In this document: in pieces, positions 7,644-19,668 of the stretch
Layout: each line of letters opens with the position of its first letter
How positions within the stretch are numbered: position 1 is the stretch's first letter
Source: Burkholderiaceae bacterium 26
Lineage (GTDB): Bacteria; Pseudomonadota; Gammaproteobacteria; Burkholderiales; Burkholderiaceae
Assembly: GCA_000955795.1 (NCBI GenBank)
Contig: JYOB01000001.1
Location: 394,301-458,300 of the forward strand
Direction of reading: 5' to 3'
DNA: 64,000 nt
The notes under the pieces: generated by a model
The model's database searches: none
Told to the model about the DNA's origin: nothing
What the model saw: the letters and a program-made list of their open reading frames with translations, nothing else
Made by a program: the position numbers and the translations under genes

Positions 7644-8381
7644 TTACGCCAGCATGGCAGCCAGCGCAGGAGGCAACCCACGGTTTGGCTTGTGCGGCGG
7701 ACGCGCAAAGCTGCCTTCCGCTGCGCCGTTCGGGGCAAGCGCAATCAGGCTCTCGCAATGGCGGATGGCGCTGGAGACGCCGTCCACAACCGGCACGGGA
7801 ATGCGGTCCTTGAGTGTCCGGGCCAGCCCGGCAAGCGGTGCGCCGGCCACGATGATCACGTCAGCGCCATCTTCACGCACTGCCTGCAGGCTGAGTTCTT
7901 CCAGCCGTGCCGCATGGTCTTCCTGCACGCTGCCGATGTCGCGCAGCGGCTGCTGCAACGAGCGCACGCTTGCCAGCCGCGACGACAGCCCATTGGCGGC
8001 TACGCACTCGCGGTACCACGCCTGGATACGGTTCGAAATGGCGATGATCGAAAAACGCTGGCCGAGCAGGCAGGCGCTGGCCAGCGCCGCTTCTGTCATG
8101 CCGACCACCGGCACATTGCACAGCTCCTTGATGCCCGCGAGGCCGGGGTCCCCAAACGCCGCGACAACCACGCCGTCGAATTGACCGGCATGTTCGGCGA
8201 CGACGCACGCAGTGGCGTAGCCGCCCACCAGTGCTTCGAAGCGCGTTTCGATATAGGCCACGCCAAATGGCGCCGTCGCCATCGTGAGGGTGGTGCCGGG
8301 TGACACGGAGCGACGCGCCTCGGCATGAATCAACTCCGTCACGCTCTCGGAGATATTGGGATTGACGACCAGAATACGCAT
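7644..8381 (-). CDS. Hydantoin/Asp-Glu racemase-family protein lacking both catalytic Cys
   Basis: 245-residue HyuE/allantoin-racemase family protein. The family fold signature is visible: N-terminal RILVVNPN, the FGDPG loop and a VPVVDGV stretch near the C-terminus. Canonical members use two cysteines (ACF.. and LGCAG positions); here residue 75 is Ala (VAAFGDPG) and the second position, about 180, is Gly/Ala (VAGAPLAG), so two-base racemisation is unlikely and another reaction or a binding role is possible. The start chosen is ATG 8381; an in-frame TTG lies 21 bp upstream and no strong ribosome site marks either. It follows the dihydropyrimidinase gene by 30 bp in the same operon. Confidence 0.75.
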   Translation of the reverse strand: MRILVVNPNISESVTELIHAEARRSVSPGTTLTMATAPFGVAYIETRFEALVGGYATACVVAEHAGQFDGVVVAAFGDPGLAGIKELCNVPVVGMTEAALASACLLGQRFSIIAISNRIQAWYRECVAANGLSSRLASVRSLQQPLRDIGSVQEDHAARLEELSLQAVREDGADVIIVAGAPLAGLARTLKDRIPVPVVDGVSSAIRHCESLIALAPNGAAEGSFARPPHKPNRGLPPALAAMLA

Positions 8382-8411
8382 GATGAAATTTTGAGAACCC
8401 AACCAAAACCG

Positions 8412-9827
8412 TCAAACCAGCGACGGCGCGCCCGCCGGCAGGAACTGCCCGCGCCCCGGTGCCGGTTCGAGGTACTTGCCGTTTTCGACCAGCATCTCGC
8501 CGCGCGAGAAGCAATGCACCGGCCAGCCGGTCACTTCGATGCCTTCATAGGGCGTGTAGTCGACCGCGTGATGCAACGCATCGTTGGTGATACGCACGCG
8601 GCGCTCCGGATCCCACAGCGTGATGTCGGCATCGGCCCCCACGGCAATCGTGCCCTTGCGAGGGTACAAACCGTACAGCCGTGCCGGGCGATACGACGTC
8701 AGCTCTACAAACTGGTGCAGCGACAGCTTGCCGCGCGCAACGCCATCAAACAGCAGCGGCAATCGCGTCTCGATACCGGGTACGCCGTTGGGAATATGGT
8801 CGAACGGTTGCGCCTGACCACCAAGCTTCTTGCCTTCCGGGTCGTCATAGTTGAACGGCGCATGGTCGGAAGAGAACACGCTGAACACGCCCCCTGCAAG
8901 CGCACGCCACACAGCCGCCTGGTTTTCCGGATCGCGCGGTGGTGGGCTGCAGACGCACTTGGCACCTTCGTAGCCATCGTCACCTTGTAGGCCCATGTCT
9001 TCCGCGGTCAGGTAGAGATATTGCGGACAGGTCTCGGCCAGGATCTGCAAGCCACGGCTTTGTGCCCAGCGAATCTGCTCGATGGCTTCCTTGCCGGAGA
9101 CATGCACGATCAGGATCGGCACATCCACCAATTCGGCAAAGGTGATGGCCCGGTGCGTGGCTTCACGCTCCACGGCTGCCGGGCGCGACAGGCCATGGAA
9201 GCGCGGCGAGATACGGCCCTCGCCGACCAGCTTCTCCGTCAGCCAGGAAATGCAGTCGGCGTTTTCCGCGTGCACCATCACCAGGGCGTTGTTCTGCTTG
9301 GCCACGTCCAGCACGTCGAGCATTTCGCGGTCGGACAGCTTCAGGTCGTCATACGTCATGTAGACCTTGAACGAGGTGTAGCCCTGGCGAATCAGCTCCG
9401 GCAGTTCGTGCTTCAGCACGTCGGGCGTGGGGTCGGCCACGATCAGATGAAAGCCATAATCGGCCACCGCGCGGCCCTCGGCGCGCCGGTGGTAATCGGC
9501 CACCGCCGCCTTCAGCGAGCCGCCTTTCTCTTGCGCAGCAAACGGGATCACCGTTGTCGTGCCGCCGCAGATGGCCGCGCGCGTGCCGGTAAAGAAATCG
9601 TCGGCCATGCGCATGCCGTCGGGCATGGGCTGGTCGAGATGACAATGACCGTCGACGCCGCCGGGCAGCGCCAGCAGACCGCTGGCATCCATCTCTCGCG
9701 CGCCGCGCGGCAAGCCGTGGCCGAGCACGGCGATGCGGCCATCGCGCACACCGATGTCGCAGGTAAAGCGGTCGGACGCGGTCACCACATCCGCATTGCG
9801 GATCACCAGGTCGAGTTCCGTGGACAT
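8412..9827 (-). CDS. Dihydropyrimidinase / D-hydantoinase family amidohydrolase
   Basis: 471-residue cyclic amidase that opens dihydropyrimidine or hydantoin rings to N-carbamoyl amino acids (family knowledge). The binuclear metal set is complete: HCH (61 and 63), carbamylated Lys 154 (FKVYMTY), H186 (HAEN), H242 (VHVSG) and D321 (SSDHAPF). The length is normal for the family. It sits between the arylmalonate-decarboxylase-like gene (21 bp upstream) and the racemase-like gene. No N-carbamoyl-amino-acid hydrolase is found nearby, so the ring substrate and the fate of the product are open. Confidence 0.9.
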   Translation of the reverse strand: MSTELDLVIRNADVVTASDRFTCDIGVRDGRIAVLGHGLPRGAREMDASGLLALPGGVDGHCHLDQPMPDGMRMADDFFTGTRAAICGGTTTVIPFAAQEKGGSLKAAVADYHRRAEGRAVADYGFHLIVADPTPDVLKHELPELIRQGYTSFKVYMTYDDLKLSDREMLDVLDVAKQNNALVMVHAENADCISWLTEKLVGEGRISPRFHGLSRPAAVEREATHRAITFAELVDVPILIVHVSGKEAIEQIRWAQSRGLQILAETCPQYLYLTAEDMGLQGDDGYEGAKCVCSPPPRDPENQAAVWRALAGGVFSVFSSDHAPFNYDDPEGKKLGGQAQPFDHIPNGVPGIETRLPLLFDGVARGKLSLHQFVELTSYRPARLYGLYPRKGTIAVGADADITLWDPERRVRITNDALHHAVDYTPYEGIEVTGWPVHCFSRGEMLVENGKYLEPAPGRGQFLPAGAPSLV

Positions 9828-9848
9828 GCTTAGCGCTCCTTCATTCCG

Positions 9849-10577
9849 TTAAGCAACGTCCGAGAACAGGCGGCCCCAGCCACGCAGCTCGCGCGTGTCG
9901 ACGCCTGCGAGCCGCAGCGATTTCCACACGACGGTCGAGATGGTGTCGTACACGGGGATGCCCGTTTCCGCTTCCAGCGCTTCAACCAGGTGAGCCGCGC
10001 GCAGGTTGGTGCAGAACGTGGTGATGGCGGCCGGCTTTTGCTGCGCCACGTCGCGCACCAAGGTGCGGATGGTGTCTTCTTCCACGTCGGCAAAGCTGTG
10101 GTTGACGTGCAAGTCCAGATGGCGCTCGGCCACGCACTTGAAACCGTGGCGCGCATAGTTCTGCACGATGCGCTGCTGCACGTCGTCCAGATACGGCGTA
10201 ACGAGCGCGAAATCGCGTGCGCCGGTTTCGGCCAGGATCTCGTTGAGCGCCAGCACTGACGTGGTGGCCGGAATGCCGGTGGCTTCCGTGATCTGACGGC
10301 ACAGCGCCTCGTCTTTCTCAAAGCCCAGCCAGCCCGACGACGTGCCGTTCCAGGCAATCACGTCGACGTGCGCGTCGGCCAGCAACTTGGCGGCGTTCAG
10401 GATCTTCTCCAGATCGAACTGCCCAAGCGCCTGGTCGCGCAGCGAAATTTCCGTCACGGTAAAGCGCGAGAAATGCGCGCTCACATTGGGCAGGCCACTC
10501 ACCATGGCGCTGGTAATGGGTTCCAGCGCCGTGTTGGACGATGGCGTGAGCATGCCGAGCTTGATGCGTTTTGTCAT
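9849..10577 (-). CDS. Arylmalonate-decarboxylase/maleate-isomerase family protein
   Basis: 242-residue member of the Asp/Glu racemase superfamily. Instead of the first catalytic Cys of maleate isomerases it has WNGTSSG (GTS at 78-80). It also has PYLDD with Tyr 129, a single active-site Cys 189 (TTFCTNL) and a GWGRLF end. This matches the arylmalonate decarboxylase layout known to me (Gly74-Thr75-Ser76 dioxyanion hole, Tyr126, Cys188), so decarboxylation or one-base chemistry is more likely than racemisation. The start at 10577 was preferred over the upstream 10613 Met because of the purine-rich GAAGAAG before it. It lies between the MFS gene and the hydantoinase. Confidence 0.75.
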   Translation of the reverse strand: MTKRIKLGMLTPSSNTALEPITSAMVSGLPNVSAHFSRFTVTEISLRDQALGQFDLEKILNAAKLLADAHVDVIAWNGTSSGWLGFEKDEALCRQITEATGIPATTSVLALNEILAETGARDFALVTPYLDDVQQRIVQNYARHGFKCVAERHLDLHVNHSFADVEEDTIRTLVRDVAQQKPAAITTFCTNLRAAHLVEALEAETGIPVYDTISTVVWKSLRLAGVDTRELRGWGRLFSDVA

Positions 10578-10737
10578 GGGAGTCTTCTTCGTGGTTTGCG
10601 CGCCCCGGTGCACGCGAGTGTGGGCACCGGGGCCGGCTTGTTATGTTGATGAGTACGGTTGCAGCTTGTCGTCAGGAGTCGGAAGCAAACGCCGCGCCGC
10701 AGGCAAATGGCGTTGGCTTACGTTGGTTCATCGCAGC

Positions 10738-12045
10738 TCAGACCGGCAGCTTCTTGCTGTAGTCGATCAGCAGCGTCGAGCAGATGAAGAGGCCCGCGCC
10801 GGCGGCCGCAAACAGCATCAGCGCCATGTCGTACGAACCGGTCGTCTGCACGATCAGGCCGACGATGATCGGCATGCCGACCCCCGCGAAGTTGCCGCCC
10901 AGATTCATCGTGCCGCCCAGGAAACCCACACGCTTGCGCGTTCCCAGGATCGACGGAATGCACCAGAACAGGCCGCACCAGCGCAGGAAGAACAGCGTGG
11001 TCGACAACAGGGCCACCACGACGACCGGCTCCTTGAAGCGCGCCACCGTGTAGATGGCGATCGTGGCCAGTACCGAAGCAATGCCGAACAGCGTGCGCAG
11101 CACCCGGGCTCGCGATGCCCCGGTGGCCATCCATTTGTCCGCAATCCATCCGCCCACCATCTCGCCCACAAAACCGGAGAAGAACATGGTGAACACGGCA
11201 CCGCCCATCTCCTTGATGTCCAGCCCATGCACCTTCGACAGATAGGTCGGCATCCAGGTCAGCAGACCGTAGAACAATGCGTTGAAGCACATCCAGCCGA
11301 AGAACATGCCCCACACCGAGCGGTACTTGAAGAAGTCCAGCACGTTGCCGCTGACAGCGGCGGGTTCAGCGGCCTGGTCGGCGGCATGTGCCTCCTCGAT
11401 GTAGGAGGCTTCAGCATCATTGACGGACGGATGCTCGCGCGGGTGGTTGCGGATGTACCACCACGAAAAGAGGCCCGCCACCATCGTCCCGATACCAGCC
11501 ACCACGAACGACGTGCGCCATGAATCGAATTCGGCGATCAGCCCGGCGATGATGAGTGCGCCCAGTGCCGCGCCCAGCGGCGCGCCGCCGTCGAGCAGCG
11601 TGGCACCGCGACCGCGTTCGTTCTGCGTCATCCAGATGGCGTTGAGCTTGCCGCCGGCGGGGTAGATGGGCGCCTCGGCCGCACCCAGGCCAAGACGCGT
11701 GACGAGTAGCGGCACCCAACCGGTACACAGCGCCGCAATGGATTGGAAGAAGCCCCAGCCCAGTGTGGCGCCGGCAATCACCACACGCGGCCCAAAGCGG
11801 TCGGCCAGCATGCCGCCCGGAATCTGCATGAGCGCGTACGTCAGAAAGAACGAACTCAGCAGTAAGCCTTGCGCCGCCGGGCCGATGTTGAATTCCTTCG
11901 CAATCAACGGCATGGCGACCGACAACGATGCGCGGTCGACGTAGTTGATGGAAATCAGCATCAACATCATCAAGAAAATCTTCCAGCGCACAGAGCTCTT
12001 CGTCTCCGTTAGCGCCATGGCCGGGGCCGGGCTTGTGGTTTCCAT
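10738..12045 (-). CDS. MFS transporter, anion:cation symporter type
   Basis: 435-residue major facilitator with 12 predicted membrane segments and the loop motif DRFGPRVVIAGA after the second helix. It resembles the ACS subfamily that imports organic anions such as hexuronates, phthalate or tartrate. It is first in the minus-strand operon that continues with the arylmalonate-decarboxylase-like, hydantoinase and racemase-like genes, so it probably imports their substrate, a carboxylated compound. It faces the GntR/FCD gene across a 255-bp AT-rich gap with a candidate operator. Confidence 0.85.
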   Translation of the reverse strand: METTSPAPAMALTETKSSVRWKIFLMMLMLISINYVDRASLSVAMPLIAKEFNIGPAAQGLLLSSFFLTYALMQIPGGMLADRFGPRVVIAGATLGWGFFQSIAALCTGWVPLLVTRLGLGAAEAPIYPAGGKLNAIWMTQNERGRGATLLDGGAPLGAALGALIIAGLIAEFDSWRTSFVVAGIGTMVAGLFSWWYIRNHPREHPSVNDAEASYIEEAHAADQAAEPAAVSGNVLDFFKYRSVWGMFFGWMCFNALFYGLLTWMPTYLSKVHGLDIKEMGGAVFTMFFSGFVGEMVGGWIADKWMATGASRARVLRTLFGIASVLATIAIYTVARFKEPVVVVALLSTTLFFLRWCGLFWCIPSILGTRKRVGFLGGTMNLGGNFAGVGMPIIVGLIVQTTGSYDMALMLFAAAGAGLFICSTLLIDYSKKLPV

Positions 12046-12198
12046 TACGCGTGTCTCCTGGTAGCTCCGGAAGTCGTTTCGGAAAACGGGCTTGGGGGCC
12101 GGTCTTGACGCCGATCCGCCCCAACTCCGCCCACCGAAACGACCTCCTAAGTCGATTTGATTGGTTTGTGTTGCGCAACGTGGCCGAGTATAGGATAC

Positions 12199-12213
12199 GT
12201 AATCTGTAATTAC
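12199..12213. promoter_or_regulatory. Candidate GntR/FCD operator
   Basis: Inverted repeat GTAAT-CTGTA-ATTAC in the AT-rich gap between the MFS operon and the GntR gene. Its position fits control of both directions. The operator assignment is inference. Confidence 0.4.
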
Positions 12214-12300
12214 AACATCTGTAAGTTATTGATTTTATTGAATACGAAAAGCACAATATCGGTGTGTGATAGCCTTTTGTGGTGCATCTTCCCCATTCTG

Positions 12301-13044
12301 GTGACGTCTGTGACTCAACCGCTGCTCCAATCCCCTCGCCTGCGAACGCTCGGCATGTCAGCCGAAATCGCCTCGCGCCTGCGCACCCTCATTGAAGAAG
12401 GCGAACTGCCGCCCGGCGCCCGCATCGACGAGCGTGCGTTCTGTGAAATGTTCGATGTTTCCAAGACGCCGCTGCGCGAGGCGCTCAAGGTGCTGGTGGC
12501 CGAGGGTCTGGTGCTGCATCGGCAGTACATCGGCTACCGCGTCGCCCCGCTCGATCTGGATGAACTGCGCGCCACCTTTGAAACGCTGCATGGGCTGGAA
12601 TTCACGGCTGGAGAACTGGCAGCGGCGCGGCTGTCCGAGGTGGCTCTGGCGCGCCTGGAACGCAAGCACCAGGCAATGCTTGAAGCGCATGCGGCGGGCA
12701 GGCGCACCGAGTACTTCCGCATCAACCAGGAAATTCACCAGCTCATCATCGATGGCACGGCCAACCCCGTGCTGGCTGGCATTTATGCGACCTTGATGAG
12801 CAAGGTGCACCGTGCGCGCGGCGCGGCCAATGCCGACACGCTGCGCTGGCAGGAATCGCACGAAGAACACGAAGCCATCATGGCCGCTCTTCGGGAGCCC
12901 GGCCGCCCGCGCTTGGCGCAGGTGCTACGCCTGCACTCGGAGAACACCGCCAAGGAAGTGCTGAGCGTCGTGGCAAGCAGCCTGGCCGAGGCCGGACGCC
13001 CTACCCGATCGACCAAGGAAGCCCCCAAGAAAGGCGCGCAATGA
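12301..13044 (+). CDS. GntR-family regulator with FCD domain
   Basis: 247-residue FadR/VanR-type regulator. A GntR winged helix (about residues 20-80; FDVSKTPLREALKVL) is followed by an all-helical FCD effector domain with the expected metal-type residues (E/D and His in FRINQEIHQLI and SHEEHEAI). Such proteins repress catabolic operons until a carboxylate effector binds. The start is uncertain: GTG at 12301 or 12310, or ATG at 12355; the open frame upstream to 12157 is AT-rich and non-coding in character. The stop overlaps the FAH gene start by 4 bp. It probably controls the divergent MFS-hydantoinase operon. Confidence 0.85.
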   Translation: MTSVTQPLLQSPRLRTLGMSAEIASRLRTLIEEGELPPGARIDERAFCEMFDVSKTPLREALKVLVAEGLVLHRQYIGYRVAPLDLDELRATFETLHGLEFTAGELAAARLSEVALARLERKHQAMLEAHAAGRRTEYFRINQEIHQLIIDGTANPVLAGIYATLMSKVHRARGAANADTLRWQESHEEHEAIMAALREPGRPRLAQVLRLHSENTAKEVLSVVASSLAEAGRPTRSTKEAPKKGAQ

Positions 13045-13889
13045 AGCTCGTACGCGTGGGGGCGCCCGGCGCAGAACGCCCAGGCTTGATCGATACACAA
13101 GGCCGCGTGCGCGACCTGTCTGGTGTGGTTGGCGAACTGGGCCCGCAGCAGTTGTCCGATGCTGCCCTCGCGCAGCTCGCGGGCGTCGACATCGCCGCCT
13201 TGCCCTTGATGCCGGATAGCCGTTTTGGCGTGCCATGGACCGGCATCGGCAAGATCATCGCGATCGGCCTGAACTATGCCGACCACGCAGCCGAGGCCGG
13301 CTTGCCGCCTCCTGCTGAGCCCATCCTCTTTCTCAAGGCAAACAGCGCTCTGAACGGCCCCAATGATGCGGTCATGCTGCCGCGCGGCTCTGAAAAGACC
13401 GACTGGGAGGTTGAACTCGGTGTGGTGATCGGCAAGACGGCGAGCGATGTTTCCCGCGAAGAAGCGCTCTCGCACGTTGCCGGTTATTGCGTGGTGAACG
13501 ATGTGTCGGAGCGCGAGTTCCAGCTTGAGCGCGGCGGCACGTGGGACAAGGGCAAGGGCTGCGATACCTTCTGCCCCGTCGGCCCGTGGCTGGTCACGCG
13601 TGACGAAGTACCCGACCCGCAAGCGCTTGGCCTATGGCTCGACGTCAATGGCGCACGTGCGCAGCGGGGCAACACGGCGACCATGGTGTTTGGCGTGGCG
13701 CATCTGGTGAGCTACGTCAGCCGTTTCATGACGCTGCACCCGGGCGATCTGATTTGCACCGGCACGCCGCCCGGCGTGGGCATGGGAGCCAAGCCCCCGC
13801 GCTATCTCAAGGCCGGTGACACCATGCGCCTGGGCATCGACGGCCTTGGCGTGCAGACACAGACGGTCGCCGCCTACACCAAAGCCTAG
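13041..13889 (+). CDS. Fumarylacetoacetate hydrolase (FAH) family protein
   Basis: 282-residue FAH-fold enzyme, of the group that cleaves or decarboxylates C-C bonds in acylpyruvates and ring-fission acids. The metal-binding acidic set is visible in the core (E-x-E in VELGVV, and a downstream D/K set), with GTPPGVGMG near the C-terminus. The short N-terminal domain (MKLVRVGAPG) is typical of bacterial members such as ureidoglycolate lyase/acylpyruvase-like proteins. It is translationally coupled to the GntR gene (ATGA) and faces away from the hydantoinase operon. It may process a downstream keto-acid of that pathway; that link is inference from context. Confidence 0.85.
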   Translation: MKLVRVGAPGAERPGLIDTQGRVRDLSGVVGELGPQQLSDAALAQLAGVDIAALPLMPDSRFGVPWTGIGKIIAIGLNYADHAAEAGLPPPAEPILFLKANSALNGPNDAVMLPRGSEKTDWEVELGVVIGKTASDVSREEALSHVAGYCVVNDVSEREFQLERGGTWDKGKGCDTFCPVGPWLVTRDEVPDPQALGLWLDVNGARAQRGNTATMVFGVAHLVSYVSRFMTLHPGDLICTGTPPGVGMGAKPPRYLKAGDTMRLGIDGLGVQTQTVAAYTKA

Positions 13890-13907: not shown

Positions 13908-14492
13908 TCAGCGCTGTGCCGCCACCAGCTTGCGCATCGCGTCCACCAGCTTCGGATCAACCGCGCCCAGCGTATTGGTGCGCGCGGTGATGCGCCCTTC
14001 TGCGTCCAGCAGCAGGATCGTGCTCGAATGGTTGAAATCGCCATCTGCCAGGCGCCGGTATTGCACGCCCAGCAGCGCGGCCACCTCGCGCGTGCCGCTG
14101 GCGTTTGCGCGGGCGACTTGCCAGCGGTCGTCGGCGCCATGCGCGTTGGCCGTCTTCTTGAGCGCCGCAACGGAATCTCGCTCCGGGTCGACCGTCACCA
14201 TCAGCACCCGCACGCCGTCGTGCGCGGGCTTTCCGCCCTTGGCGAGCGTGGCGCGAATGGTCTCGAAGATCATCGGGCAGACCATCTGGCACGACGAATA
14301 GAACATGCTCACGAGTACCGGCTCGCCGCGCAGGTCTGCCAGGTGGAAGACGCGGCCGTTCTGGTCGGTCAACGCCACGTCAGATTGATACAGCGAGCCC
14401 GAAGCGACGGGCCCGGCAGCAAGCGCGGCGGCTGCGGCACCGGCCAGCATAAGTGCCACGAAGGCACGGCAAAGTTGCTTAAGAAGCGTCAT
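13908..14492 (-). CDS. SCO1/SenC-family copper chaperone
   Basis: 194-residue exported thioredoxin-fold protein. A signal peptide covers about residues 1-26. The copper ligands CxxxC (C68, C72 in SSCQMVCP) and His 155 (DFNHSS) are all present. SCO proteins deliver copper or manage thiol redox at copper sites; in this operon the natural client is the copper nitrite reductase encoded two genes upstream. The start overlaps the nirV stop by 4 bp. It is convergent with the FAH gene. Confidence 0.88.
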   Translation of the reverse strand: MTLLKQLCRAFVALMLAGAAAAALAAGPVASGSLYQSDVALTDQNGRVFHLADLRGEPVLVSMFYSSCQMVCPMIFETIRATLAKGGKPAHDGVRVLMVTVDPERDSVAALKKTANAHGADDRWQVARANASGTREVAALLGVQYRRLADGDFNHSSTILLLDAEGRITARTNTLGAVDPKLVDAMRKLVAAQR

Positions 14493-15280
14493 GGACGTTC
14501 TCCGTTGATGGATCGGGCACAGCGAAAGCCAAGGCTTCCCGTGGCATCGGCGCCCTCAAGTGATGACAGCAACGCCACGCGCATCAGCACGGCGTAGCTG
14601 TCGCGGCGCACGATGCTGATGGCACCGGCGCCGCAAAACTTCTGCTTGTCGGGGTCGCCCTGCGTGCGGCTGTCCCCGGCGATAAAGAGTGCGTTGAAAT
14701 CGTCGACCCATTCCCAGATCAGGCCGTGCAGATCGCGCACGCCATGGACATCCGCCGGGCCGCCAACGGGCGGCAACACTCGCGTGGCGGGTCGTTCGTA
14801 CCAGCCGAGAATGCGTTGCGCCCATTGCGGGTCGTCGCGGGCGTCTGCGCGTGTGGCGTCGGCCGCGGCGGCGGATTCCCACTCAAGCCAGGTCGGCAGG
14901 CGCGCCCCTTCGCTTTCGCAATAGGCACGGGCCGCAAACCAGCTCACGCCAGTCACCGGCGCTTGCGGCAAGGCTTGCGCATCGGCGTGCGTCGCATCGG
15001 CCCAGTCGGCAAGGTAGGCCTTGCCGGCAAAGACTTGCGGCACCCGGCCGCGCTGCCAGGCCTCGTGACGTTGCACGAAGGACTGGAACTCGCCGATGGT
15101 GACCGGCGTGGTGCGCAACTCAAACGGCTCGATGCGCACCCGCTGCGGCTGCCCCGGTGCGTTCTGGGGCAGCACGCTGTCGAAGTCGCCGCCGGGCAGC
15201 CGCACATAGGCGGCGCCCTGTGCGGCAGCGCTAGCCAGCGCCATCAACATGGCAGCAAGGTGCAAGGTCAGGCGGCCCAT
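14489..15280 (-). CDS. nirV: NirV-like formylglycine-generating-enzyme-fold protein
   Basis: 263-residue exported protein with a SUMF1/FGE fold: signal peptide (1-22), then LPGG-F, a TPVT segment, PVTGVSW, ARLPTWLEWE and a GFRC end. In true formylglycine-generating enzymes the C-terminal motif SYCYRYRC carries two catalytic Cys; here it reads SYAVLMRV (Ala 230, Val 235), so sulfatase-type oxidation is not expected. Genes of this type beside nirK are called nirV in denitrifiers. A role in maturation or stability of the nitrite reductase is inference. The start at 15280 opens the signal peptide; the upstream extension overlaps nirK. Confidence 0.8.
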   Translation of the reverse strand: MGRLTLHLAAMLMALASAAAQGAAYVRLPGGDFDSVLPQNAPGQPQRVRIEPFELRTTPVTIGEFQSFVQRHEAWQRGRVPQVFAGKAYLADWADATHADAQALPQAPVTGVSWFAARAYCESEGARLPTWLEWESAAAADATRADARDDPQWAQRILGWYERPATRVLPPVGGPADVHGVRDLHGLIWEWVDDFNALFIAGDSRTQGDPDKQKFCGAGAISIVRRDSYAVLMRVALLSSLEGADATGSLGFRCARSINGERP

Positions 15281-15296
15281 GGTCGTGCAGATCCGG

Positions 15297-16853
<1,557 letters not shown>

Positions 16854-16861
16854 TTAGGGCT

Positions 16862-16875
16862 TTGATACAGCGCAA
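16862..16875. promoter_or_regulatory. FNR/Dnr-like box upstream of nirK
   Basis: TTGAT-ACAG-CGCAA, seven or eight matches to TTGAT-N4-ATCAA with the key TTG and CAA kept. The centre would be at -41.5 from the predicted nirK start. Confidence 0.45.
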
Positions 16876-16974
16876 ACGAAAACCGGCCCCGTCCGGCACA
16901 TTCACCCCACCGCGTGGCATGCAAGCCCAGTCGTGGCGTGATTTGCCACACCAAGATACCCATAAAACAAGCAT

Positions 16975-16988
16975 CTGATATACATCAA
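16975..16988. promoter_or_regulatory. FNR/Dnr/NnrR-type box upstream of the DUF2249-norB unit
   Basis: CTGAT-ATAC-ATCAA, nine of ten matches to the CRP/FNR-family consensus TTGAT-N4-ATCAA. It is centred 41.5 bp before the start site predicted from the -10 at 17011, a class II activator position for low-oxygen or nitric-oxide induction. Confidence 0.7.
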
Positions 16989-17010
16989 TAACGCCGGAGA
17001 TTCTGCTCAC

Positions 17011-17016
17011 TAATAT
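17011..17016 (+). promoter_or_regulatory. -10 element of the DUF2249-norB promoter
   Basis: TAATAT, five of six matches to TATAAT, placed 32 bp (centre to centre) after the FNR-type box. The predicted start is about 17023, giving a leader of about 46 bases. Confidence 0.6.
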
Positions 17017-17017
17017 A

Positions 17018-17036
17018 GTTGCATCCTTAATGCATC
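17018..17036. promoter_or_regulatory. NsrR-like operator over the transcription start
   Basis: GTTGCAT-CCTTA-ATGCATC. Read on the minus strand it is GATGCAT-N5-ATGCAAC, 13 of 14 arm bases matching the NsrR palindrome GATGCAT-N5-ATGCATC. It overlaps the predicted start at 17023, so a nitric-oxide-sensing repressor would block transcription here. Confidence 0.6.
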
Positions 17037-17068
17037 TTTTTGATGCGACACCCACAGAGGGAATCCCC

Positions 17069-17359
17069 ATGACACAGTCCGCCTCCACCATCCAGCTCGA
17101 CCTCCGCGTGCTGGCGCCGCGCGAGCGCCATCCGCTCATCTTCTCCGCCTTCGGGGAACTCGGCATCGGCCAGAGCCTGGAGCTGATCAACGATCACGAT
17201 CCGCGCCCGCTGCAGTCGCAGTTTCAAGTGGAGCGCCCGGGCCAGTTTTCCTGGGACTACCTGGAGCGCGGCCCCGGCACGTGGCGCGTTGCCATCACCA
17301 AGGTGGCATCTGCCGCCAGCGCTGGCCACTGCTGCGGTGGTTGCGGTGGCGGCGCCTGA
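17069..17359 (+). CDS. DUF2249-domain protein with Cys-rich tail
   Basis: 96-residue cytoplasmic protein, a single DUF2249 domain (motif E/DLRVLAPRERHPLIF, then INDHDPRPL). DUF2249 proteins recur next to denitrification and nitric-oxide detoxification genes; their chemistry is not established. The C-terminus ends CCGGCGGG, a Cys/Gly cluster that could bind metal or react with NO (inference). I chose ATG 17069 because AGAGGGA precedes it; the Met at 17030 lies inside the NsrR-like operator. It is followed 32 bp later by norB and shares its FNR/NsrR-type promoter. Confidence 0.8.
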   Translation: MTQSASTIQLDLRVLAPRERHPLIFSAFGELGIGQSLELINDHDPRPLQSQFQVERPGQFSWDYLERGPGTWRVAITKVASAASAGHCCGGCGGGA

Positions 17360-17391
17360 ATTTCCGATTGCATCCTGCAAGGAACCTTGTC

Positions 17392-19668
17392 ATGAAAAAC
17401 AACCAAAGGCTGTGGCGGTGGCTCGGCCTGATCTTCATCCTGTCGTTCGGAGCATTGGGCTATCTGGGCCGGCAGATCTATCTGGCAGCGCCGCCGATTC
17501 CGCATGCCGTCGTCACCTCTGTGGGCGAGGTGCTCTTTACCGGCGAACAAATCCAGCGCGGCCAGGAAGCCTGGCTGGCAGCCGGCGGCCAGCAGCTTGG
17601 CACCGTCTGGGGCCACGGCAGCTACGTGGCACCTGACTGGTCTGCCGATTGGCTTCACCGTGAAGCCACGGCGCTGCAAGCCATCCGCGCGCATCAGCAG
17701 TTCGATACCGATGCGCCGTTGACGACCGTGCAGCAAGCCGCCGTCGACGCCAGCGTGAAGGAAGAAATGCGCCGCAATACGTACGACGCAAATCACGACA
17801 TCCTGACCGTGTCGCGTGAGCGCGCAGAGGCCATCCGCGGTGTGTCGCAGCACTTCGAGGCCCTGTTCGGCACCGATCCGTCGCTGGCAACGCTGCGTGA
17901 TCAATACGCCATGGCTACCGGCGTGCTGCCGGAGGCGGCCGATCGCGAAGCCCTGGCTGCGTTCTTCTTCTGGACGTCGTGGGCCGCCGCTGCCGACCGC
18001 CCAGGCGAGACCGACATCTCGTATACGAGCAACTGGCCGCATGAACCGCTCGTGGGCAACACCATGACCGGCGGTGCCGCCATGTGGTCGATGGTCAGCA
18101 TCGTGCTGCTGCTGGGCGGTATTGCCGCCATGCTGTGGCTGCACGGCAGCAGCAAGCACGAAGAGGAGGCTGCGCCGCTGCCGGCCGATCCGTTCCTCAA
18201 CGTGGTTGCCACGCCGTCGATGAAGGCCACGCGCAAGTACTTCTTTGCCGTGATCGGCCTGATGCTGGTGCAGATCGGCATGGGCGCCATCACCGCGCAC
18301 TATGCGGTGGAGGGTGAATCGTTCTTCGGGATTCCCCTGGCGCAGGTGCTGCCGTACGTGATCAGCCGCACCGTGCACACGCAGCTTGGCGTGCTGTGGA
18401 TTGCCACGGCGTGGCTGGCCACGGGCCTGTACATTGCACCGCTGCTGTCGGGGCGTGAACCGAAGTTCCAGAAGCTGGGCGTTGATGTGCTGTTCTGGGC
18501 GCTGATCTTTATCGTGGTGGGCTCCATCGCGACCGGCTGGCTTGGCACGCTGCAACATCGCGGTGCGGACTTCGGCTTCTGGGTCGGTAACCAGGGGCTG
18601 GAATACACCAGCATGGGTCGCGTGTGGCAAATCTTGCTGTTCGTCGGCCTGCTGTTCTGGGTCGTGCTGCTGGGCCGCGCGCTGTGGCCGGCACTGAAGA
18701 CGCCGTCGGAATCGCGCGGGCTGATCGCCATGGTGTTCCTGTCGGCCACGTGCATCGGCGGGTTCTATTCGACCTCGCTGGTGTGGGGCCAACACACGCA
18801 CTATTCGATGATCGAATACTGGCGCTGGTGGCTCGTCCACCTGTGGGTCGAGGGCTTCTTTGAAGTGTTCGCCACCGCCGTCATTGCGCTGATCTTCACG
18901 CGCCTGGGCCTGATCCGTGCCACCAGCGCCAACCGCGCCATCGTGGCCGAGACGATCGTGTTCCTGTTCGGCGGCATCCTGGGCACGCTGCATCACCTGT
19001 ACTTCACGGGCACCCCGACCTCGATCATCTCGGTGGGTGCGGTGTTCTCTGCGCTGGAAGTGGTGCCGCTTTCGCTGATCGGGCTCGAAGCGCTGCAGAA
19101 CTATCGCCGCACGCAAGGCACGCCGTGGCTCAACGCCTACAAGTGGCCCGTGCTGTGCTTCGTGGCCGTGGGATTCTGGAACACCGTCGGCGCCGGCCTG
19201 CTCGGCTTCGCCATCAACCCGCCTGCTTCGCTGTACTACGTGCAGGGTCTGAACATGACGGCCGCCCACGGACACGCCGCACTGTTCGGGGTGTACGGCA
19301 TGCTCGGTATCGGCCTGATGCTGTTCTGCCTGCGCGGCCTGTATGCGCGCAGCCTGCATGCCGATCGCCTGCTCAAGCCCGCGTTCTGGGGCCTGAACAT
19401 CGGCTTGGCGATGATGGTGTTCATGTCGCTGCTGCCGGCCGGCATCTACCAGGCCTGGGCCAGCGTCACCAAGGGCATGTGGTACGCCCGTTCGCCGGAG
19501 GTGGTGCACTCGAAAGTGATGGAAACGCTGGTCTGGCTGCGTGTGCCGGGTGACATCGTGTTCGCCATCGGTGCGCTTGTGCTGGCTTGGTATGCGCTGC
19601 GGCTGCTGCGCCGTCCGAAGGCACAACAGACCGAGCCGCTGCCGGCTTCGGCTCGCGCCATGCGTTAA
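17392..19668 (+). CDS. norB: Quinol-dependent nitric oxide reductase (qNOR)
   Basis: 758-residue inner-membrane enzyme reducing two NO to N2O with electrons from quinol. The N-terminal helix and about 200-residue periplasmic domain resemble NorC but lack CxxCH, which marks the single-subunit qNOR type. The haem-copper-oxidase-like core follows, with H329 (low-spin haem), H483 and E487 (HLWVE), H534-H535 and the haem b3 region H626/H628 (HGHAALFG). The length matches qNOR. It directly follows the DUF2249 gene and ends in a strong terminator, and it removes the NO made by the divergent nirK product. Confidence 0.95.
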   Translation: MKNNQRLWRWLGLIFILSFGALGYLGRQIYLAAPPIPHAVVTSVGEVLFTGEQIQRGQEAWLAAGGQQLGTVWGHGSYVAPDWSADWLHREATALQAIRAHQQFDTDAPLTTVQQAAVDASVKEEMRRNTYDANHDILTVSRERAEAIRGVSQHFEALFGTDPSLATLRDQYAMATGVLPEAADREALAAFFFWTSWAAAADRPGETDISYTSNWPHEPLVGNTMTGGAAMWSMVSIVLLLGGIAAMLWLHGSSKHEEEAAPLPADPFLNVVATPSMKATRKYFFAVIGLMLVQIGMGAITAHYAVEGESFFGIPLAQVLPYVISRTVHTQLGVLWIATAWLATGLYIAPLLSGREPKFQKLGVDVLFWALIFIVVGSIATGWLGTLQHRGADFGFWVGNQGLEYTSMGRVWQILLFVGLLFWVVLLGRALWPALKTPSESRGLIAMVFLSATCIGGFYSTSLVWGQHTHYSMIEYWRWWLVHLWVEGFFEVFATAVIALIFTRLGLIRATSANRAIVAETIVFLFGGILGTLHHLYFTGTPTSIISVGAVFSALEVVPLSLIGLEALQNYRRTQGTPWLNAYKWPVLCFVAVGFWNTVGAGLLGFAINPPASLYYVQGLNMTAAHGHAALFGVYGMLGIGLMLFCLRGLYARSLHADRLLKPAFWGLNIGLAMMVFMSLLPAGIYQAWASVTKGMWYARSPEVVHSKVMETLVWLRVPGDIVFAIGALVLAWYALRLLRRPKAQQTEPLPASARAMR

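Follow-up and report, generated by a model that had tools for sequence, protein, structure and literature searches.

What is the function of a hydantoinase operon that encodes two proteins of the racemase superfamily, neither of which carries the normal cysteine pair? The usual mechanism of hydantoin and allantoin racemases relies on two facing cysteines. An operon of this unusual kind is found on the minus strand of a 64,000-nucleotide stretch of Burkholderiaceae bacterium 26 (assembly GCA_000955795.1, contig JYOB01000001.1, positions 394,301 to 458,300), which we refer to as the window. It comprises the genes for an MFS permease, an arylmalonate-decarboxylase/maleate-isomerase-like protein (Amd), a dihydropyrimidinase/D-hydantoinase (Hyd), and a hydantoin/allantoin-racemase-like protein (RacL), and lies opposite divergent genes for a GntR/FCD regulator and an FAH-family hydrolase. 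An initial annotation had described this arrangement, and our analysis confirmed its gene content, strand, and coordinates. The annotation was also right in that both racemase-superfamily proteins depart from the normal pair, RacL lacking both cysteines and Amd one of them. The gene set very probably takes up and opens a nitrogen-containing ring compound, and the chemistry of RacL is probably of a kind that has yet to be measured. We propose, with a probability of about 0.5, that the operon is under GntR/FCD control and serves the catabolism of an anionic cyclic ureide or imide. The substrate would most likely be a carboxylate of the allantoin or hydantoin type that derives from purines or pyrimidines.

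Loss of the catalytic cysteine pair in RacL

RacL (7644..8381, minus strand; 245 aa) probably starts at ATG 8381, and Amd at ATG 10577; longer frames open at TTG/GTG. The racemase fold is present in RacL, as revealed by a PF01177 match of 143 bits, and a comparison with the NCBIfam models returned zero matches at E 0.001. In the alignment, A75 and G180 of RacL occupy the catalytic positions C79 and C184 of the Klebsiella allantoin racemase, and A114 and I115 correspond to T118 and T119; residue roles and numbering are those given in PMC12661438. RacL thus differs at both catalytic positions from the allantoin and hydantoin racemases of the HyuE/AllR type (PDB 3qvj/3qvk, 5lfd/5lg5). The same alignment places a Gly at the first cysteine position of 5lfd, so that a single missing cysteine is compatible with the deposited racemase name. 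Without either cysteine of the two-base mechanism, however, RacL should not work like the allantoin racemases. Its five other cysteines are located at positions 59, 88, 104, 126, and 209.

An alignment of 60 RacL relatives contained 38 rows with the Ala/Gly pair, many of them close Cupriavidus kin, 12 rows with Cys/Cys, 6 with Cys/Gly, and 4 with other combinations. The Ala/Gly pair recurred in 20/20 further loci and in 7/7 plasmid-encoded RacL proteins, and these counts rule out gene decay of RacL. In a tree built from 47 rows, the window RacL belonged to a clade of 24 Ala/Gly rows (support 91/75, which is under the program's star), and the 12 two-Cys rows formed a separate one (100/97); an Ala/Gly row on a long branch (L102_8888) was placed outside the main Ala/Gly clade. 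Among 398 evenly sampled genomes of the phylum, the RacL subfamily, delimited at 246 bits or more (the score of its lowest member), was present in 11 besides the own genome, and all 11 proteins carried Ala/Gly. The row just under the subfamily (L074, 242 bits) keeps the first cysteine, and the scores then fall to 201. Larger samples from single orders yielded 46/297, 12/300, and 4/195 genomes over E 1e-55. Their fetched loci showed Ala/Gly in 30/30, 9/17, and 4/4 cases, with 6 Val/Gly and 2 Cys/Gly loci making up the rest of the second set. At least one genome of the 297-genome sample (G028, row L076) keeps the first cysteine in its match. Taken together, the sequences support the loss of the cysteine pair as a fixed trait of the subfamily. 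One-cysteine members of the racemase superfamily are known, so the clade without the pair is noteworthy rather than shocking.

Could RacL be a non-catalytic partner with a role in stabilising or regulating Amd or Hyd? The absence of both catalytic cysteines throughout the examined subfamily rows would suit such a pseudoenzyme, as would the overlapping or abutting Amd and RacL genes of L035, L036, and M. nodulans. However, the motif residues N7, N9, F76, G77, D78, and E97 are invariant in the subfamily, and in several fetched stretches (L095, L102, and others) RacL is present and Amd is not. We therefore consider a purely structural or regulatory role improbable.

Several other racemase-family variants were observed. 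Val/Gly at both catalytic positions in L150, L151, and L154-L157, from the order of the window, represents another way of losing both cysteines. Side-by-side racemase-family genes were seen as two Ala/Gly copies in L102 (8858-10347) and L168 (9630-11050), and as an Ala/Gly gene next to a weaker, different type in L177 (8830-10327). The own genome also encodes first-Cys-only and two-Cys racemase relatives (L049/L110, L046/L109); together with RacL, all three cysteine states coexist in one cell. About 0.7 kb beyond the right end of the window (C1; L104:696-2177), a frame of ~500 aa with two head-to-tail PF01177 matches corresponds to a fused double racemase. An aspartase-like gene comes next (by eye; here and below, this marks names read from the sequence in fetched loci without family search).

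Amd between arylmalonate decarboxylase and maleate isomerase

Amd (9849..10577, minus strand; 242 aa) matched PF17645 with 92 bits (cut-off 25.9). C189 stands at a catalytic position with G78 opposite; G78 and C189 align with G74 and C188 of arylmalonate decarboxylase (AMDase) and with the first and second cysteine of maleate isomerase. The first-cysteine position was Gly78 in 18/18 aligned Amd rows, and 12/12 aligned plasmid Amd proteins had both G78 and C189. In M. nodulans, a further racemase-family protein carries the GTS and CTN motifs of Amd.

The initial annotation had suggested an unusual malonate- or ring-containing substrate. In a pathway for aryl- or alkylmalonates, Amd would act as an arylmalonate decarboxylase, and it does share with AMDase of the Bordetella bronchiseptica type G78, C189, the Thr-Ser of the dioxyanion hole (T79, S80), and Y129 (Tyr126 in AMDase), in an aligned stretch that excludes P14 P15, L40, V43, and Y48. 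However, the criterion residues V156, M159, and G189, taken from PMC4996985, are replaced by N159, F162, and T190. Instead of the AMDase motifs LMGTSLSF and ILLSCGGL (PMC4996985), Amd contains AWNGTSSGW and TTFCTNL, and its score on the AMDase model NF052327 was 82 bits, with a cut-off of 225. The AMDase gene neighbourhoods described in the consulted section of PMC4996985, with TTT, TRAP, or ABC transporters and MR/MLE enzymes and no hydantoinase named, are unlike the window operon. Moreover, malonate degradation would leave Hyd without a role. The malonate half of the suggestion is thus weak, and we regard such a pathway as highly improbable. The ring half fits the cyclic amidohydrolases, amidases, nitrilases, and hydroxyisourate-hydrolase-like proteins that recur near relatives of the operon.

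The closest solved fold to Amd is that of maleate isomerase (2xec, 4fq5), with AMDase ~2 Z units behind. N15, Y129, N159, and C189 of Amd align with maleate isomerase residues, and of the two cysteines of that enzyme the second is kept and the first is G78. As a relative of maleate isomerase, Amd could act on a C4 dicarboxylate in the degradation of a cyclic imide of the maleimide/succinimide type, for which Hyd would be the imidase. Yet the first cysteine of maleate isomerase is replaced in all 18 Amd rows and in the 12 plasmid members, and this route leaves RacL without a role, which makes it very unlikely. On the EutA model TIGR02990, Amd reached 80 bits, far under the cut-off of 318. Amd as the OHCU decarboxylase of the organism was ruled out, as the genome's matches to PF09349 and PF00576 are located on a different contig.

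Conservation of the module on chromosomes and plasmids

Within the operon, the intergenic gaps are 160 bp (Amd-MFS), 21 bp (Hyd-Amd), and 30 bp (RacL-Hyd), and base composition showed no break at the operon. A search for the same gene order in other genomes, which the initial annotation had set as a test, revealed that it is conserved far outside the strain. Of 45 loci identified through Amd, 25 had the order MFS-Amd-Hyd-RacL, which is more than chance; several loci without the full order end at contig ends. The view of the annotation that the operon departs from a standard hydantoin pathway is likewise supported. The nearest named relatives belong to Ralstonia, with an Amd identity of 99% in R. 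pickettii SSH4 (L001). In Cupriavidus, the identities were ~82-88% for RacL and Amd and 87-91% for Hyd. The laboratory strain C. metallidurans CH34 encodes a RacL of 84.8% and an Amd of 83.8% identity, ~1.5 kb from each other on record NC_007974.2.

In ~20-kb stretches around the 11 RacL genes of the even sample, Hyd was found in 9/11, Amd in 8/11, and at least one of both in 10/11. The one locus with neither, L099, encodes a CN-hydrolase and a TrzA-like protein instead. Neither Hyd nor Amd was detected in the stretch fetched around L103, whose racemase keeps the first cysteine. In L035 and L036, Amd and RacL are adjacent and Hyd was not in the fetched stretch.

Thirteen of 70 listed plasmid matches were opened (7 RacL-anchored, 6 Amd-anchored), mostly annotated records of other genera. 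All seven RacL-anchored regions encoded Hyd, GntR, and an Amd-type protein. Among the plasmids are pIron_OXY of Klebsiella oxytoca and pZXY21 of Arthrobacter sp. ZXY-2, typed conjugative, indicating that the module crosses phyla. It occurs in Alpha-, Beta-, and Gammaproteobacteria and in Actinomycetota, and parts of it were seen in further phyla through metagenome bins and a cyanobacterial plasmid record. A literature search, made mostly without subscription journals, returned no description of the module or of the Cys-less subfamily. We tentatively suggest a widespread, horizontally transferred, and so far uncharacterised pathway acting on a carboxylated ureide, in which RacL might act alongside a one-Cys Amd of new specificity and catalyse a reaction not previously seen in the Asp/Glu racemase superfamily. 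A Cys-less subfamily that keeps the other motif residues and is linked to a hydantoinase across phyla offers a direct test case for other chemistry of this fold. It could give a function to many genes named only 'aspartate/glutamate racemase family protein', and could reveal a missing ureide or heterocycle pathway that is found on conjugative plasmids, too.

Additional genes adjoin the module in some relatives. In 11/13 examined MFS-Amd gaps there is an extra serine-hydrolase gene (PF00144 for L010) with a signal-peptide-like start (by eye), absent from the window operon. This beta-lactamase-family protein is encoded at L010:6778-7971 and at equivalent sites in many Cupriavidus and R. soli (L041), and perhaps frees the substrate outside the cytoplasm. 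A DUF3830 protein adjoins the module in Paraburkholderia (L193:10862-11281, L023:12211-12669).

Promoter, regulator, and divergent genes

Between the MFS and GntR genes lies a 29-bp block, TTGTAATTACAGATTACGTATCCTATACT (12187..12215, minus strand), that is identical in 24/45 loci. It is constant across Ralstonia, Cupriavidus, and Pandoraea terrae, with drifting flanks, and Pandoraea cepalis (L028) has a close variant. The block resembles a sigma-70 promoter with a 17-bp spacer (TTGTAA-17 bp-TATACT) and contains two palindromes, TGTAATTACA and GTATCCTATAC. A scan for consensus promoters gave 2 sites against 1.0 expected, which alone is not above chance, and a scan for terminators gave 1 against 4.6 expected, likewise not above chance. 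We presume that the block, as promoter of the operon, is also the operator bound by GntR. Allowing three mismatches or fewer, no second 29-bp block was found in the window, and no second copy of its 21-bp core in the own genome of 5.68 Mb. With a single core in the genome, the regulator probably serves only this locus. An invariant promoter and a dedicated GntR regulator would provide an easy handle for finding the inducer.

The GntR/FCD gene (12355..13044, plus strand; PF00392, PF07729) has an uncertain start, either ATG 12355 or GTG 12310; a start at TTG 12157 would cross the conserved promoter. It overlaps by 4 bp with the gene of the FAH-family hydrolase (13041..13889, plus strand), which matched PF01557 with 255 bits and NF053535 with 458.5 bits, under the cut-off of 500. 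An FAH gene stands beside GntR in 14/45 Amd-found loci. L185 and L192 also contain FAH-family genes, and L188 has a gene for a 2-keto-4-pentenoate hydratase. The window FAH gene may be an accessory part of the pathway. Adjoining FAH, the window region 13908-19668 encodes SCO-like, sulfatase-modifying-factor-like, copper nitrite reductase-like, and NorB-like proteins (by eye), which form a denitrification-type cluster.

Hyd and the missing N-carbamoylase

Hyd (8412..9827, minus strand; 471 aa; aligned to 1nfg) scored 754 bits on NF009941 (cut-off 647) and 519 bits on TIGR02033 (cut-off 393). On the allantoinase model TIGR03178 it reached 244 bits, with a cut-off of 358. The metal-ligand motifs GHCHLDQ at 60, SFKVYMTY at 152, VHAEN at 185, VHVSG at 241, and SSDHAPF at 319 provide the binuclear metal ligand set of dihydropyrimidinase, for which PMC3546935 served as reference. 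The next-best match in the own genome is 26% identical, making Hyd the single hydantoinase of this kind.

According to the initial annotation, an N-carbamoylase is absent. This held for the operon, where family searches of its genes revealed none, but not for the genome, which contains two members of TIGR01879 (carbamoylase family) over cut-off outside the operon. Both genes fit a scheme of ordinary hydantoin or dihydropyrimidine use, in which Hyd works, a carbamoylase in trans finishes the reaction, and RacL and Amd play a minor part or can be dispensed with. The standing of Hyd as a standard dihydropyrimidinase above cut-offs and without a close paralogue agrees with this scheme. However, in Cupriavidus the conservation of RacL and Amd comes close to that of Hyd, both accompany Hyd into other phyla, and their side-by-side position without Hyd in the stretches fetched for L035 and L036 is difficult to reconcile with ordinary hydantoin use. 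The genome has no second copy of the 21-bp operator core, so this site is not shared by the carbamoylases. We therefore judge ordinary hydantoin use unlikely.

Neighbouring genes and the proposed pathway

The gene neighbourhood was surveyed in 31 RacL-anchored loci, 11 from the even sample and 20 chosen by us for diversity from the single-order matches, all 20 with the Ala/Gly pair. Hyd was present in 11, Amd in 12, a TrzA-like amidohydrolase in 11, and an amidase or nitrilase in 19. At least one of these occurred in 28/31 loci, a count that covers RacL-anchored loci only. For two scanned TrzA-like proteins, the best models were of the 5'-deoxyadenosine deaminase, TRZ/ATZ, and 8-oxoguanine deaminase type, all under cut-off. 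Hydroxyisourate-hydrolase-like genes were found in 6/31 loci; five of the proteins end in FRGA or FRGV and that of L160 in YRGS, and the L097 protein is under the TIGR02962 cut-off. The FRGA/FRGV paralogues near the RacL module (L096-L098, L164, L173) are possibly ring hydrolases of new specificity.

In L160, the genes beside RacL include two that score over cut-off, for a PuuE/OHCU-decarboxylase fusion and for ureidoglycolate lyase, in addition to the hydroxyisourate-hydrolase-like gene and to PuuD-like and xanthine-permease-like genes (by eye); the PuuD-like protein had zero NCBIfam model matches. A PuuE-like protein in L167 is under cut-off. In two Azospirillum regions, an annotated hydroxyisourate hydrolase lies ~9 and 12 kb from Amd, and in Caballeronia NK8 Amd is located just downstream of genes for an NCS2 nucleobase symporter, UbiD/UbiX, and an amidohydrolase. 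The Polaromonas plasmid pE10SP1, according to PMC6015842, encodes an Asp/Glu/hydantoin racemase, a dihydropyrimidinase-like protein, ureidoglycolate lyase, polysaccharide deacetylase, and cyanuric acid hydrolase. Genes of these kinds (TadA-type deaminase, hiuH, allantoin racemase, TRAP and MFS carriers) are classed with purine use in a study of purines in the ocean (PMC11698098). The amidases, nitrilases, TrzA-type, and hydroxyisourate-hydrolase-like neighbours point to the catabolism of a purine- or pyrimidine-derived ureide rather than of aryl malonates.

Other neighbours bear on the product. BhcA-like aminotransferases are encoded in L037 and L092 (under the NF045640 cut-off) and class V aminotransferases in L188 and L192; in L037 and L188, the aminotransferase gene directly adjoins Hyd on the same strand. 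L093 contributes a match of the AllA type and, by eye, a glyoxylate-carboligase-like gene; a malate-synthase-like gene (by eye) is found in L160. All of these would fit glyoxylate as the end product, which we do not accept as proven. A link to sugar-acid-type oxidation is possible, given that L185 encodes FAH together with an SDR and with NAD(P)-dependent oxidoreductases, and L189 an SDR and an NAD-epimerase.

In the proposed ureide pathway, the compound would be taken up by the MFS symporter (10738..12045, minus strand; 435 aa; PF07690), an anion:cation symporter (ACS)-type permease with 234 bits on TIGR00893, under the cut-off of 395. Hyd, which belongs to the dihydropyrimidinase family and has an intact metal site, would open the ring of a cyclic amide and thereby yield a ureido or amic acid. 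To judge from its AMDase-like Gly/Cys layout and its maleate-isomerase-like polar residues, Amd may be a decarboxylase or isomerase that uses Cys189 and accepts the carboxylated compound in its open or its closed form. RacL would most likely act on this small ureide, too, in a step that requires no cysteine pair and is of the lyase, hydrolase, or decarboxylase kind. We infer both this catalysis and the order of the steps. The remaining C-N hydrolysis could be performed by an amidase or nitrilase, encoded near the module in many relatives and presumably elsewhere in the genome here. The GntR regulator, with its single genomic site, would respond to a pathway ligand and control this locus alone.

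Several observations weigh against the ureide pathway. C104 of RacL is nearly invariant in the subfamily alignment, making a moved catalytic cysteine possible. The transporters vary among relatives (MFS, TRAP, ABC), so the substrates may vary, too. Some TrzA-like matches are only 24-28% identical, the amidase matches at E 1e-6 take in a common family, and a single genus code accounts for three of the six hydroxyisourate-hydrolase-like cases. The urate genes near the L160 RacL may be mere neighbours. Finally, the own genome encodes an ordinary hydroxyisourate hydrolase and OHCU decarboxylase outside the operon, which is thus not needed for urate.

Comparison with known systems

Aerobic purine and allantoin clusters offer parallels at the fold level, namely an allantoin-racemase relative and a cyclic amidohydrolase, and some relatives of the module have TadA/TrzA-type deaminases, PuuE-like, and hydroxyisourate-hydrolase-like proteins as neighbours. 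Unlike in those clusters, no window gene encodes a standard urate enzyme, and family searches of the operon revealed no OHCU decarboxylase and no allantoinase over cut-off. With the hyu operons, which combine hydantoinase, racemase, and N-carbamoylase, the window operon shares the D-hydantoinase/dihydropyrimidinase and a racemase-family gene. It differs from them in having no carbamoylase, in a racemase-family protein without the cysteine pair, and in the additional Amd and ACS-type MFS permease. The parts belong to known families, and the literature search returned no account of their combination or of the fixed cysteine loss. In our best assessment, the system is a variant of the hydantoinase/ureide pathways.

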